From the IMG/VR virus record IMGVR_UViG_3300044522_000017, positions 1 to 35,318 of that record: a stretch of DNA of 35,318 nucleotides; one strand, given 5' to 3'. The position numbers were made by a program, and so were the translations under genes. The stretch is from a virus. Of this stretch, positions 25,882 to 30,705 are shown in pieces; position 1 is the first letter of the stretch, and every line of letters begins with the position of its first letter. A model generated the notes under the pieces. The model was not told the origin of the DNA. It made no database searches and saw only the letters and a list, made by a program, of their open reading frames with translations.

Positions 25882-25917
25882 AGGGACTTCCTCACAAGGG
25901 GAGTCCCTTTTTCTTTT
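25882..25917 (+). terminator. Rho-independent terminator
   Basis: AGGGACTTCC (25882-25891) pairs with GGGAGTCCCT (25899-25908), 10 bp with one G-T pair, followed by TTTTTCTTTT. This is a textbook factor-independent terminator closing the capsid-decoration unit. Confidence 0.85.
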
Positions 25918-25945: not shown

Positions 25946-26569
25946 ATGGCTATCGAGTCAGATGTAAGAAACGCAGACGCAAACCTAGCAGTCACATTCT
26001 ATAAACGGTCAGTAAAGCAAGATATGGCTTCTGAAGAAGCTGGCAGACCGATTTTTAAAGAATTTGATTTTATAAGAATTATGGTTCCTGGCGATAATTT
26101 AAGTGAAATTGACACTTATGCCCAAGAGTCCCATAAACAGCGTTTCCCACGCCATTGGGCGCATTACCAAAACCAAGAGGGTACAAGTCAAAGTTTTGAA
26201 GGCACACTTATTGAACAATGGCCTTTGGTTACCCGTAGTCAAGCTGATGAATTAAGAGGAATTAAGTTTCCTACCGTAGAGTCTGTTGCTAACTGTTCAG
26301 ACGCACAATTACAGCGTATTGGCATGATTGCAGGGATGTCACCTCATTCTTTCCGTGAAAAAGCCAAGGCTTTTCTTAATTTAGCCACCGATTCAGCCGA
26401 AGTAGCACAAAGAGAAGCAGAATTGCAAGCATTAAAAGAAGAAAATGCTAAAATTAAGGCTGAAACAGATGCGAAGCTATCCAAAATGCAGGAACAAATG
26501 GAAGCCCTACTTGCTGCTGTTGCGGAAAAAACTCCAAAATCACGCAAACCGAAAGTAGTAGAGGCCTAA
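25946..26569 (+). CDS. Structural protein with C-terminal coiled coil
   Basis: A 207-residue protein. The N-terminal half has TFYKRSVKQDM and GTLIEQWPLVTRSQADELRG, then TVESVANCSDAQLQRIGMIAG. This pattern is found in proteins of unknown role beside podovirus capsid and neck genes. The last third is an Ala/Glu/Lys-rich coil with a basic tail (KTPKSRKPKVVEA). It starts a unit after the strong terminator. Probably a minor head or neck protein. Confidence 0.65.
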   Translation: MAIESDVRNADANLAVTFYKRSVKQDMASEEAGRPIFKEFDFIRIMVPGDNLSEIDTYAQESHKQRFPRHWAHYQNQEGTSQSFEGTLIEQWPLVTRSQADELRGIKFPTVESVANCSDAQLQRIGMIAGMSPHSFREKAKAFLNLATDSAEVAQREAELQALKEENAKIKAETDAKLSKMQEQMEALLAAVAEKTPKSRKPKVVEA

Positions 26570-26570
26570 T

Positions 26571-27113
26571 ATGTTAAACAGCGCAGGAAATGTAGTGAAG
26601 TCAAGCACTTCCTGTGCTTTTTATACCTACGCCCACATTAATCCAATAACTAATAAAATTTTTTATATTGGAAAAGGCACAAAATCTAGGCATTTAGCAG
26701 CAACAAGACGAAATCCGCATTGGACTAATATTGTTAATAAATACGGTTTTATTGCTGAAATTTTGGCATATTGGCAAACTTCTGAAGAAGCGCTAAGTCA
26801 CGAAAAGCTGTTAATTTCATCATTTAATGACATGGGTTATGTTTTGGCAAACAAAACTAGCGGTGGTGAAAATTGTCATTTGTCGGATGAAACAAGAAAA
26901 AAAATAGCTATTTCACAAATTGGCAAAAAAAGAAGTCAAGAAGCACGCAAAAAAATGAGTGAATCAGCTTTAAAAAGAAAGCCTATAACTGGCTGGAAAC
27001 ATTCTGAAGAAACTAAGCAAAAAATTAGAAGCAAATTAAAAGGCAGAATAATGTCTGAAGAAAGTAGGCTGAAAATGATTGCTACTAAATTAGCCAAAAG
27101 AGGTCAATTATGA
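26571..27113 (+). CDS. GIY-YIG homing endonuclease with NUMOD3 repeats
   Basis: A 180-residue homing endonuclease. The GIY-YIG core is FYTYAHINP (17-25) and FYIGKG (31-36), with the catalytic Glu in SHEKLLI (Glu78). NUMOD3-type helices follow: LSDETRKKIAISQIGKK, RSQEARKKMSESALK, and GWKHSEETKQKIRSKLKG with MSEESRLKMI. GAGG precedes ATG 26571. The first 15 residues are encoded by a terminator-like hairpin and do not belong to the usual domain. It overlaps the next gene by four bases, so it rides in the structural operon. Confidence 0.9.
   Translation: MLNSAGNVVKSSTSCAFYTYAHINPITNKIFYIGKGTKSRHLAATRRNPHWTNIVNKYGFIAEILAYWQTSEEALSHEKLLISSFNDMGYVLANKTSGGENCHLSDETRKKIAISQIGKKRSQEARKKMSESALKRKPITGWKHSEETKQKIRSKLKGRIMSEESRLKMIATKLAKRGQL
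26581..26622 (+). terminator. Terminator-like hairpin inside the 5' end of the GIY-YIG gene
   Basis: GCGCAGGAA (26581-26589) pairs with TTCCTGTGC (26609-26617), with one G-T pair and a small inner GTG/CAC, followed by TTTTT. It lies within codons 4-18 of the endonuclease. It may be the original terminator of the upstream gene, captured as coding sequence, or an attenuator that limits nuclease expression. Confidence 0.6.
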
Positions 27114-28021
27114 GTCAAACAATGCTTCAGATGGTTCAGCAAGTCACAGCAGAACTTAACTTAGCCGTACCTACCTTTGTTGCTGGTAATCAGTCACAAG
27201 ATGTCCAACAAATATTGGCGTTGATGAATGGTGCTGGGTATGATTTAGTTAAGGAATACAACTGGCAAGCCCTCCAAGTGCAATATCGTTTCTACACACA
27301 GGCAATTAATACTACAGGCACTACCGTAAACGGTTCTACTGTGTTGCAAATTGATGAAGCGATTGATTTAAGTGGTGTTACTAAGCAATGGCAGGTAACT
27401 GGCACAAATATCAACCAAGACACCAATGTAGTGTCAGTAAACAACACTACCAAAACCATTGTTTTAAGCCAAATGGCTTCAGGTACAGGTTCAGGTGAGA
27501 TTGTATTAGCCCAAACAGCTTATTCATTACCTGCTGACTTTGAAACCATTACAGACCGTACTCAATGGGACAAAACTAAGCATTGGGAAGCATTAGGGCC
27601 TGAAAGCGCACAACAATGGCAATGGCTAAAGTCTGGTTATATCTCTACTGGCCCACGCATCAGATGGCGTATTCTGGACAATCAATTCCAAGTATGGCCT
27701 CCAATGAATACCAACGAATACCTTGGTTGGGAATACCGTAGCAAAGGTTGGGCAAGGGCAGCAGACGGAACTATAAAGAATAGCTTTACTGCTGACTCAG
27801 ACACAACTGTATACGATGACCGTTTAATGGTTATTTATACAAAACTCAAATATTTCCAAGTAAAGTCTTTTGACACAACTGCTTTAAACCAAGACTATAT
27901 GCGCTATTTAAGCGTTGTTAAAGCTAATGACAAAGGTGCGCCAAATCTGTCATTTGCACCATACCCAAGCAAAGTGCTTATTGGCTACGCTAATATTCCT
28001 GATACTGGTTATGGGTCTTAA
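27110..28021 (+). CDS. Head-to-tail adaptor / neck protein
   Basis: A 303-residue protein typical of podovirus neck genes: an N-terminal helical part (MLQMVQQVTAELNLAVP then ALMNGAGYDLVKEYNWQAL), a beta-rich insert (near 60-145), and a C-terminal domain with SLPADFETITDRTQW and WEYRSKGWARAADG. This layout occurs in adaptor or tail-tube-A-like proteins that bridge portal and tail. It starts in an ATGA overlap and is followed by the large hub gene two bases later. Confidence 0.75.
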   Translation: MSQTMLQMVQQVTAELNLAVPTFVAGNQSQDVQQILALMNGAGYDLVKEYNWQALQVQYRFYTQAINTTGTTVNGSTVLQIDEAIDLSGVTKQWQVTGTNINQDTNVVSVNNTTKTIVLSQMASGTGSGEIVLAQTAYSLPADFETITDRTQWDKTKHWEALGPESAQQWQWLKSGYISTGPRIRWRILDNQFQVWPPMNTNEYLGWEYRSKGWARAADGTIKNSFTADSDTTVYDDRLMVIYTKLKYFQVKSFDTTALNQDYMRYLSVVKANDKGAPNLSFAPYPSKVLIGYANIPDTGYGS

Positions 28022-28023
28022 TC

Positions 28024-30705
28024 ATGGCGCAGCCTAAACAAAGAAGTGCTGTAACAGCCTCAGTTTCTAGTCCTATTGGTGGATGGAACGCAAGGGACTC
28101 TATTGCTGAAATGCCACCCTTAGATGCGGTTGTTTTAGACAATTTTTACCCTACACCTACGGATGTGCAATTAAGACTAGGCTACACAAAAGCCAGCATT
28201 ATTACTACAACAACTGGCGTACAAACTATCTCTAGTATTACTGTTGCTGGGGCTGTAGCAACGCTTACTACCGCAGCAGCGCATGGTTTAGCTACTGGTG
28301 CTACAGTTTCAATTACTGGCGTTACCCCTGCTGGATATAACGGTATTTATACAATAACTGTTATTAATTCAACTTCTTTTAGTTTTAGACCTGTTGCCGT
28401 GCCTACTGTAAGTGCATCAGTAGTGGGTGTTTATGCAATAGAAGTAAACACACCTATTAATTCTTTAATGAATTACGCTGGGCCAAGCACTCAAGACTTA
28501 TTTGCTGCTGCTGGCACACAGATTTATGATGTTTCTGGGCCTGTTGCAGTAGCTTCACACACCATTACTAATGACAAATTGCAGCACATTAATATTACTA
28601 CTGCTGGCGGTCATTTTCTAGTAGCTTGTAACGGTCAAGACGCTACTACCTTTTGGAATGGCACAGATTGGATAAATAACGCTGCTACTGATGTACCCCA
28701 AGTAATGCAAACCATTACAAGAGTAGGTACTTTAGCAACCGTTACTACAGCAGTTGCACATGGTCTTGTAACAGGCAATCAAATTGTAGTTTCTGGCGTT
28801 ACACCAGCAGCTTATAACGGTACATTTAAAGTTACCGTATTAACAGCTACCCAATTTACCTATGTAATGGCTACAACGCCAGCTAGTAATGCTACAGCCA
28901 ATGGTACAGCCTATGCTATTACTTCTATTACCAACACAGGTACAGGCGCTTTAGTTACTACGGCTGCTGCCCATAATTTGTATACAGGCAACATTGTTAC
29001 GGTTGCTGGTGCTACACCAAGTCAATATAACGGTACTTTTGCCATTACACGCCAAAGTGCTACAACCTTTACTTATGCCTTAGTAAGTAACCCAGGCGGT
29101 AATGCAACTGTTGTAGGCACTTACAGCATAGCAGTTGCAGCATTAAGCACTATTAGCAATACTGGTGCTACAGCTAATGCGGTTACAGCCACAAATCATG
29201 GTTTATTTACTGGTAACCAAATAATCGTATCTGGTGCTACACCTGCTGCATATAACGGCACATTTACCATTACCAAGCTAAGTGATGTGCAATTTAGCTA
29301 TGAAATGGCTTCTACCCCCGCTACTGTAGCTACGGTTGTTGGTTCTTATACTGTACCTGCCCAAACTATTAGCAGTAATGTGCAAACTGGTATTGTTGCC
29401 AAGCTACAAGCTGCTGCAAACCATGATTTAGACACAGGTGATGTGGTGACTATTTCTGGCGCTGTGCCAAGCCAATACAACGGCACATATAACATTATTA
29501 AAATTAGCGATAGTATATTTAGCTACATTATGGCTGCCTCGCCTGTTTCTGACGCTTCAACTACAGGCACTTACTCAACCTTTCAAGGTGTGTATTCCAT
29601 TAATTTTGCTATTACTGGCGTTAATTCTAATAAATTTATTCATGTAAACTTGTTTAAAAACAGGCTATATTTCACCGAAGAAGGCAGTATGAGGGTCTGG
29701 TATTTGCCAGTTAATTCTATTGCTGGTGAGGCGCAACCCCTTGAATTTGGTGGTATAGCCCGCAATGGTGGCTACATACAAGCAATGGCTACTTGGACTA
29801 TTGACGCTGGACAAGGTGCTGACGATTACGCAGTTTTTGTTACCTCAATGGGCGAAATTATTGTATTTAACGGTACTGACCCTGATTCTGTTGACACATG
29901 GGCATTAAAAGGCGTATGGCAACTAGGCTTTGTATTTAGTCGTAGATGCTTTTATAAGTTTTCTGGTGACATTTTATTGCTTACCCAAGACGGTTTAGTG
30001 CCTTTGGCTTCTGCATTGCAGTCTAGCCGATTAGACCCTAGGGTTAACCTTACCGACAAGATTTACTACGCTATTTCTCAAGCAGCCACGCTGTACGGCA
30101 TTAACTTTGGTTGGCAAATTGCCTACTATGCTTCCCAAAATATGTTAATTATTAATGTGCCAATTAACGCAGGTATTCAGCAATATGTAATGAATACTAT
30201 TTCTAAGTCTTGGGCAAGTTTTAGTGGCTTTAATTCCCAATGTTGGGAACTATCTAACGACCAAATGTACTTTGGTGCTGATGGCTATGTTGGTCATTTT
30301 TGGAACGCCTACTCAGACAATGGTAGCAATATTAATGCTGAAGTACAGCAAGCCTATAGCTACTTTGACGCTAGAGGCCAATTAAAACGCTTTACTATGA
30401 TTCGCCCAATATTCCAAACTGATAACGGAATACCTGGCGTATTGGCTGGTATCAATGTGGACTTTGACACTCAAAACAATCTTGGTACTGTGTCATTTAA
30501 CGCCCAAAACGCCCAAATTGGTTCATGGGATAACGCCATTTGGGATGAGTCCCAATGGGGTGGTGCGCTATCTATTACTAAGTCATGGCAAGGCGTAACA
30601 GGTATTGGTTATTCAGGCGGTGTAGCTATGAGAATAGCTTCCCAAGGTATTGATGTGCATTGGGCTTCTACGGATTATGTAATGGAACGCGGAGGTGTTC
30701 TCTGA
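28024..30705 (+). CDS. Large tail hub/nozzle-like protein with five Ig-like repeats
   Basis: An 893-residue virion protein. The start (SSPIGGWNARDSIAEMPPLD, VVLDNFYPTPTDVQLRLGY) and the C-terminal half (RLYFTEEGSMRVWYLP, LPLVTQD-type propeller-like strands) match podovirus stabilisation or tail-nozzle proteins. Five copies of a roughly 70-residue beta domain are inserted (about residues 67-139, 229-299, 299-370, 374-445 and 447-518). Each has an AHGLxTGxxVxVxG core and then TPxxYNGTFxIT. The first copy is separated from the others by about 90 residues of the conserved body. The stop overlaps the next start (CTGA). Confidence 0.78.
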   Translation: MAQPKQRSAVTASVSSPIGGWNARDSIAEMPPLDAVVLDNFYPTPTDVQLRLGYTKASIITTTTGVQTISSITVAGAVATLTTAAAHGLATGATVSITGVTPAGYNGIYTITVINSTSFSFRPVAVPTVSASVVGVYAIEVNTPINSLMNYAGPSTQDLFAAAGTQIYDVSGPVAVASHTITNDKLQHINITTAGGHFLVACNGQDATTFWNGTDWINNAATDVPQVMQTITRVGTLATVTTAVAHGLVTGNQIVVSGVTPAAYNGTFKVTVLTATQFTYVMATTPASNATANGTAYAITSITNTGTGALVTTAAAHNLYTGNIVTVAGATPSQYNGTFAITRQSATTFTYALVSNPGGNATVVGTYSIAVAALSTISNTGATANAVTATNHGLFTGNQIIVSGATPAAYNGTFTITKLSDVQFSYEMASTPATVATVVGSYTVPAQTISSNVQTGIVAKLQAAANHDLDTGDVVTISGAVPSQYNGTYNIIKISDSIFSYIMAASPVSDASTTGTYSTFQGVYSINFAITGVNSNKFIHVNLFKNRLYFTEEGSMRVWYLPVNSIAGEAQPLEFGGIARNGGYIQAMATWTIDAGQGADDYAVFVTSMGEIIVFNGTDPDSVDTWALKGVWQLGFVFSRRCFYKFSGDILLLTQDGLVPLASALQSSRLDPRVNLTDKIYYAISQAATLYGINFGWQIAYYASQNMLIINVPINAGIQQYVMNTISKSWASFSGFNSQCWELSNDQMYFGADGYVGHFWNAYSDNGSNINAEVQQAYSYFDARGQLKRFTMIRPIFQTDNGIPGVLAGINVDFDTQNNLGTVSFNAQNAQIGSWDNAIWDESQWGGALSITKSWQGVTGIGYSGGVAMRIASQGIDVHWASTDYVMERGGVL

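Follow-up and report, generated by a model that had tools for sequence, protein, structure and literature searches.

A conserved hairpin in the first codons of a phage homing endonuclease gene that apparently took over the start of a tail gene

RNA structure limits several phage homing endonuclease genes (HEGs). In phage T4, the coding regions of mobE and segF have terminators at their 5' ends, and mobE, which is coupled to nrdA through UAAUGA, shows about 30% termination (excerpts of PMC2988022). The T4 record places the mobE hairpin at about +33 to +54 and that of segF, GACGCCGAAAGGCGTC-TTTT, from about +48; the former is missed by the scoring scan used here because CC precedes its T-run. 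A different arrangement is described in excerpts of PMC2988022 and PMC3014915 for I-TevI, segB and Aeh1 mobE, where the hairpin covers the ribosome site and a late promoter is placed so as to escape it, and I-TevI is also stated to repress itself at its operator (PMC2988022, in part).

The window analysed here is a virus contig of 35.3 kb, whose own HEG allele is denoted W, while L-numbers denote relative loci or contigs. The HEG lies between an upstream gene of phrog_20268 and a tail gene (Table 1), and the major head protein gene is found further upstream of this stretch. One base separates the upstream stop from the ATG of the HEG, whose TGA stop overlaps the tail-gene ATG at 27110. The major head gene is followed by a small virion gene, behind which a strong terminator-like hairpin (score +33) lies at 25882-25908, so the stretch of upstream gene, HEG and tail gene may be less transcribed than the head gene. 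Beyond the tail gene, positions 28024-30705 encode an 893-aa virion-type protein with several repeat units recognised by eye ('HGL.TG..V.ISG.TP..YNG.F.IT'), the number of which may vary among relatives.

Table 1. Positions of the features at the HEG junction in the window.
Feature	Coordinates	Strand	Basis or remark
Upstream gene, phrog_20268, function unknown	25946..26569	+	TAA stop 26567-26569
AGAGG, Shine-Dalgarno-like, within the end of the upstream gene	26560..26564	+	precedes the tail gene in empty-site relatives, the HEG here
GIY-YIG-like HEG with NUMOD3, 180 aa	26571..27113	+	PHROG and Pfam
HEG start codon and codons 2-3	26571..26579	+	ATG at 26571
Hairpin 5' arm	26580..26593	+	10 pairs up to 26589, one mismatch, then 3 pairs
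Hairpin 3' arm	26605..26618	+	folding and allele alignment
T-run abutting the stem, codons Ala-Phe-Tyr	26618..26622	+	sequence
Second AGAGG, Shine-Dalgarno-like, in the last codons of the HEG, ahead of the tail gene	27099..27103	+	
Altered tail-gene start, ATGAGT...	27110..27130	+	versus L040: 4 synonymous changes, codons 2-7
Tail gene downstream, phrog_6013	27110..28021	+	

The HEG product belongs to the PHROG 314 homing endonucleases (6e-20) and contains NUMOD3, a DNA-binding module of the HEG type (35.5 bits in W, cut-off 20.4), which also exceeds the cut-off in L002 and L121 and stays under it in L001 and L006. The Pfam models GIY-YIG (12.9 bits, cut-off 22.6) and LEM-3_GIY-YIG (19.3 bits, cut-off 27) remain under their cut-offs in W, and a YTY...YIG motif is recognised by eye. 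A sequence search of the PDB with the product returned only matches at E 0.13 and 0.18, both to GIY-YIG proteins, and the AF2 model (pLDDT 52.6) was too poor for use. The gene is predicted to be a GIY-YIG-like homing element of the free-standing type, located right where a phage tail gene begins.

The hairpin occupies codons 4-18 of the HEG (26580-26618, then the T-run, inside ORF 26571-27113), as stated in the initial annotation, which also rightly placed the nuclease part immediately behind it, where FYTYAHIN...FYIGKG follows in the HEG reading frame. Its 5' arm AGCGCAGGAA (26580-26589) pairs with the 3' arm TTCCTGTGCT (26609-26618), TTTT standing directly after; the ten pairs are succeeded by an A-C mismatch and three further pairs, and the stem region folds at -17.3 kcal/mol. 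In the whole window, both strands included, three stems have 9 or more pairs and TTTT behind them, this hairpin being one and that at 25882-25908 another, against a mean of 0.5 and a maximum of 2 in 40 shuffles. Compared with 2000 synonymous recodings of its peptide, the hairpin has a z of -3.75, with 0.05% of the recodings equally stable; dinucleotide shuffling of 91 nt gives a z of only -2.24 (5/200 shuffles as good), and a tight 57-nt window around the hairpin one of -4.26. The hairpin is real and non-random. It is not listed by a consensus terminator scan, because its loop is at least 11 nt long and the scan admits loops of 3-8 nt; the window has no Rfam match at gathering scores, and an exact search of viral contigs with the hairpin core gave no match.

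According to the initial annotation, the HEG had probably landed at, or grown through, the terminator of the upstream gene, and relatives lacking the endonuclease should carry the hairpin behind the 25946-26569 gene. This comparison was run on two sets, the best 80 of 288 upstream-gene relatives (set 1) and the best 80 of 230 around L002 (set 2), which have no exact 200-mer in common and thus share no contig; near-identical contigs within a set are counted separately. In set 1 the upstream stop lies 1 nt from the tail-gene ATG at 79/80 loci, and L047 holds a different insert. Among 77 scoreable loci of set 2, 73 show a gap of 0-2 nt, three contain this HEG and one another insert. The pooled 157 scoreable junctions therefore comprise 152 empty ones (0-2 nt, no HEG), two with an HNH gene and three with this HEG, the latter (contigs L002-L004) being the only GIY-YIG inserts and all having the hairpin. 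None of the 152 empty junctions has the hairpin, and its covariance model finds it at 0/80 loci of set 1 and 5/80 of set 2, all five from HEG-bearing contigs. It follows that the hairpin was not derived from the upstream gene. Its terminator-like form and its beginning 10 nt past the upstream stop are what an upstream terminator with an HEG inserted into it would show, but with neither room nor hairpin there in 152/157 scoreable relatives this origin is extremely improbable. As judged from the junctions, the hairpin belongs to the HEG and travels with it.

The sampling of HEG alleles is subject to one bias: GCTTTTTAYAC is a requirement of one search pattern, and of the two A1 peptide patterns one derives from the N-terminal extension, so hairpin-free HEG alleles could be under-sampled; the upstream-gene searches behind sets 1 and 2 are independent of these patterns. 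Copies of the hairpin apart from the HEG were sought with the pattern AGCAYTTCYYRTGCTTTTT, which returned 25 stretches, 12 of them from HEG contigs; local folds of the other 13 (L130-L142) show no 5' arm, and these are taken as chance. In 54 sources, covariance model R1 found the window site with its weaker opposite-strand match (E 0.032) and five others at only E 1.1-10, and no relative was confirmed among the genome contigs searched.

The HNH inserts are found at the same junction of upstream stop and tail gene in two lineages, at L047:4627-5121 (minus strand) and in L239. Both encode 165 aa on the opposite strand with HNH_3 above its cut-off (AP2 is under its cut-off in L047), and the tail gene beside them keeps the TCN form of its start. 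This second, unrelated type of HEG makes the junction look like a homing-gene hot spot.

Beside this upstream gene, the HEG is present in 13 contigs (W, L001-L009, L121, L123 and L125; L008 and L009 end ahead of the tail gene), and the hairpin in 13/13, representing eight distinct sequences. A stem-loop and U-run within the 5' coding region, as in mobE and segF, is found at codons 4-18 in 8/8 alleles, the stem starting 9 nt after the ATG in seven and 12 nt in L001, and abutting TTTTT in all eight. Over the 14-pair stem, 110/112 cells pair, the two exceptions being pair 11-32 in W and L001; pairing drops to 39-66% in partner-slid controls, and 1/500 column shuffles equals the observed value. 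Two pairs are changed on both sides, 5-38 (U-A/C-G) and 6-37 (G-C/A-U), and five more vary on one side. Column shuffles reach the number of doubly changed cells in 11/500 cases and the covariation score in 1/500, but as 219/500 match the count of two doubly changed pairs, covariation alone argues only weakly for the pairing; moreover, both pairs separate W and L001 from the remaining alleles and so may reflect one event. Synonymous recoding is the stronger test: in 8/8 alleles at most 0.32% of 5000 draws reach the observed stem pairs (p <=0.0032) and at most 0.3% of 2000 draws the observed energy (p <=0.003). The loops differ in length by 3 nt between alleles with the frame kept, which indicates a stretch that encodes protein and forms structure simultaneously. 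Judging from these comparisons, the pairing is maintained beyond the demand of the peptide.

A functionless stem reflecting the peptide or shared ancestry could be suspected from the fact that the eight alleles form one clade with few independent changes; the synonymous null speaks against this, as does the retention of pairing though the paired codons encode different residues among alleles (5' arm: A, T or M; 3' arm: C or H), and such a relic or coincidence is very improbable. A role of the DNA itself, as a palindromic operator for self-repression by the endonuclease or as a recombination end of the element, is given slightly more weight but is likewise improbable. It would agree with the autorepression of I-TevI at its operator (PMC2988022, in part) and with the 3' arm AGCAYTTCYYRTGCT (window 26604-26618), a 5-bp palindrome in its own right in 8/8 alleles, one pair of which is changed on both sides. 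Against it, the small palindrome stays within what synonymous recoding gives by chance (p 0.12-0.14), G-U pairs at five stem positions fit RNA rather than DNA, and no promoter stands out at the hairpin. The same chance level led to rejection of the small hairpin in the 3' arm as an alternative structure of an attenuator switch.

Two alleles show peculiarities of sequence. The HEG of L007 has a stop at codon 2 (L007:1855-1863); an in-frame ATG is present in the hairpin 5' arm of L007, as in that of all six AGCATG-type alleles, so that the stem may contain a second start. The upstream gene of L121 matches as two pieces in different frames near 661, which may be a frameshift or an assembly error.

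The hairpin alleles make up one side of a branch in a 33-row GIY-YIG tree (support 94/86), and related HEGs elsewhere are mostly without the hairpin. Neighbours in this tree that lack the extension begin M-FYTYAH (L154, L156-L159) or M-HYTY (L152), and none of L152-L159 is located beside the present flanking genes, within flanks reaching at most 3 kb on either side. In the tail-gene tree, L001 falls with L002, L005, L007, L121 and L123 (100/100) and a grouping of W with L001 is rejected (p-AU 4e-67), while the HEG tree joins W with L001 (94/93) and L006 with L002/L005/L007 (91/90); the wider 33-row tree does not place L006, and the host grouping forced on the HEG tree is rejected at a borderline level (p-AU 0.041). 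The HEG thus seems, from these trees, to have moved between phage lineages, and it combines such transfer with presence/absence polymorphism at one junction. Among 28 further GIY-YIG loci, start-region hairpins unlike the present one are found in L161 (near 1470), L167 (near 3000), L155 (near 515) and L153 (near 650), with z from -3.9 to -2.0, the other 24 loci being above -1.3; this suggests that start-region hairpins were gained repeatedly among GIY-YIG genes. The L161 hairpin reads AATATAGTATTCT...AGAATACTATATT, and no ATG, GTG or TTG start is seen there by eye.

The HEG coding sequence starts where the tail gene starts in empty relatives, behind the same Shine-Dalgarno-like AGAGG. In set 1, AGAGG or GAGG lies at most 20 nt from the tail-gene ATG at 75/80 loci (L047 included), and in set 2 AGAGG precedes the tail gene at 73/73 empty sites. 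The gain of a ribosome site and of an N-terminal extension, which the initial annotation had attributed to the terminator of the upstream gene, is upheld for both parts, the ribosome site being apparently that of the tail gene. In L002, L001 and L005 the HEG opens with 10 nt that are also known as tail-gene starts; in L002 these are ATGTCATACA, exactly as in the tail genes of L198-L203, close relatives with 97% identity in the upstream protein. The HEG start of L005 agrees with L198-type tail genes but differs from the empty relative closest to it in the tail-gene body (80%). In W only ATGT matches its empty relative, which would be expected if the left end arrived with the element from another lineage.

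Behind the HEG the tail gene restarts, in the clearest alleles with synonymously changed codons. The restarted tail gene of L002 has the same first 14 residues as that of L198, with 13/13 of codons 2-14 differing, all synonymously, against 19/76 of codons 15-90 (Fisher p 2.5e-7). Compared with L202, 97.5% identical over the tail-gene body, 10/13 of these early codons differ against 9/76 after them (p 3.7e-6), and compared with L204 10/13 (one nonsynonymous) against 31/76 (p 0.017). L001 (8/13, one nonsynonymous) and L006 (10/13, three nonsynonymous) give p 0.005 each against more distant relatives. For W, the difference is 4/13 against 6/76 relative to L040 (p 0.036) and not significant relative to L042 (p 0.31). 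Two control comparisons between empty loci showed no start recoding (p 0.57 and 0.99). In all eight filled alleles the tail gene restarts as ATGAGY (Ser AGY) with a purine-rich stretch ahead, whereas the serine is TCN in all 153 HEG-free tail-gene starts (80/80, L047 included, and 73/73, one start being ATT). The HEG TGA overlaps the new tail-gene ATG in W, L001, L006, L121 and L123, and in L002, L005 and L007 the HEG stop is a TAA supplied by the first codons of the restarted tail gene (ATGAGTTATAAC). Apparently, insertion took place within the first codons of the tail gene, the HEG took the start, and the element supplied a recoded tail-gene start; L002 appears to be the clearest case of such capture, and the signal of capture and recoding in W itself is weak.

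On d'Aubenton-style scores (L001 tail scored over 10 nt), W has -3.6 and the other seven alleles range from -8.2 to +1.7, which is borderline for a terminator, the comparators being +33 (the terminator at 25882) and +6.4 (T4 segF). The T-run is not independent evidence, because Phe-Tyr codons provide most of it: across seven genes of the window, 71/86 Phe codons are TTT, and 4/5 M-FYTY relatives have TTT TAT but not the hairpin. A promoter scan between hairpin and tail gene found none that stands out (1 found, 1.7 expected), so strong termination would starve the tail gene. The hairpin is likely a weak attenuator and/or a translation brake on the HEG; with borderline scores the two are hard to separate, and both may act. 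Attenuation of the HEG, as the initial annotation proposed, is plausible by analogy with T4.

A brake on translation only, with a stem (at about +10 to +50) that delays initiating or early elongating ribosomes on the HEG and does not terminate transcription, is a rather unlikely but serious alternative. The stem begins 9 nt after the ATG in 7/8 alleles and 12 nt in one, and a distance of 9-12 nt past the ATG is the edge of the 30S footprint; the borderline terminator scores also agree with this reading, and folding of 110 nt leaves the ATG paired more often than unpaired in 6/8 alleles. Those pairings differ in place between alleles, however: non-conserved pairings outside the stem reach the HEG ATG in some folds, and no conserved pairing of the stem with the Shine-Dalgarno sequence or the start was found, the stem lying 9-12 nt past the ATG in 8/8. 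Furthermore, five T abut the stem in 8/8 alleles, which is the arrangement of a terminator, an elongating ribosome would melt the stem, and mobE of T4 offers a precedent that terminates.

The reading preferred here, and thought probable though well short of certain, is that of a captured-start HEG element whose conserved hairpin brakes HEG output while the tail gene is fed from the recoded start. As the element uses a structural gene's start of translation, its hairpin would act as a brake: some RNA polymerases may stop at the nascent RNA hairpin with its U-run, which is what is reported for mobE of T4, when a re-initiating ribosome does not melt this hairpin soon enough, and the same stem may also hinder initiation or early elongation on the HEG. 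By either route little endonuclease would be made, and read-through transcripts would still supply the tail gene via its new ribosome site. The recoded start would protect the carrier from its own enzyme and remove the direct repeat that would permit deletion of the element; we infer both the lowered HEG output and this protection from sequence. For the fuller proposal of a 'home-and-rescue' element the case is evenly balanced: it would insert within the initial 10 nt of a tail gene that is presumably essential, take the ribosome site of that gene and start codon, throttle itself by a conserved hairpin, and carry a synonymously recoded tail-gene start that keeps the protein and destroys the target and the direct repeat.

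In its arrangement, the locus is most like T4 mobE at the nrdA/nrdB junction, a free-standing operon HEG with its start coupled to the upstream stop and with a hairpin and U-run in the 5' coding region. However, mobE encodes an HNH and not a GIY-YIG enzyme, a middle promoter is reported to serve nrdB, and neither a captured start nor a recoded gene start is described for it in the excerpts of PMC2988022. T4 segF is a free-standing GIY-YIG HEG (a hybrid) with a 5' intragenic terminator-type hairpin, but its loop is short (4 nt), its score is higher, and sequence and site differ. The locus shares with I-TevI, segB and Aeh1 mobE an RNA structure limiting a phage HEG (PMC2988022 and PMC3014915, in part), and departs from such RBS-sequestering HEGs in that the stem in W starts 9 nt past the ATG and no promoter stands out. 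A captured start together with a synonymously recoded downstream start is not described in the portion of the literature searched, which includes text from PMC2988022, PMC3014915 and PMC10448857.

The present analysis carries the mobE/segF arrangement over to a different HEG, one of uncultured phages. The comparative evidence, comprising the synonymous null, the retained pairing and the 152 empty sites, points to an intragenic hairpin that is kept and travels with the homing gene. With its recoded gene start, the element resembles the recoded-rescue design of synthetic gene drives, and the taken start and recoded tail-gene start would provide a sequence view of a selfish gene entering a structural gene and leaving its protein unchanged.
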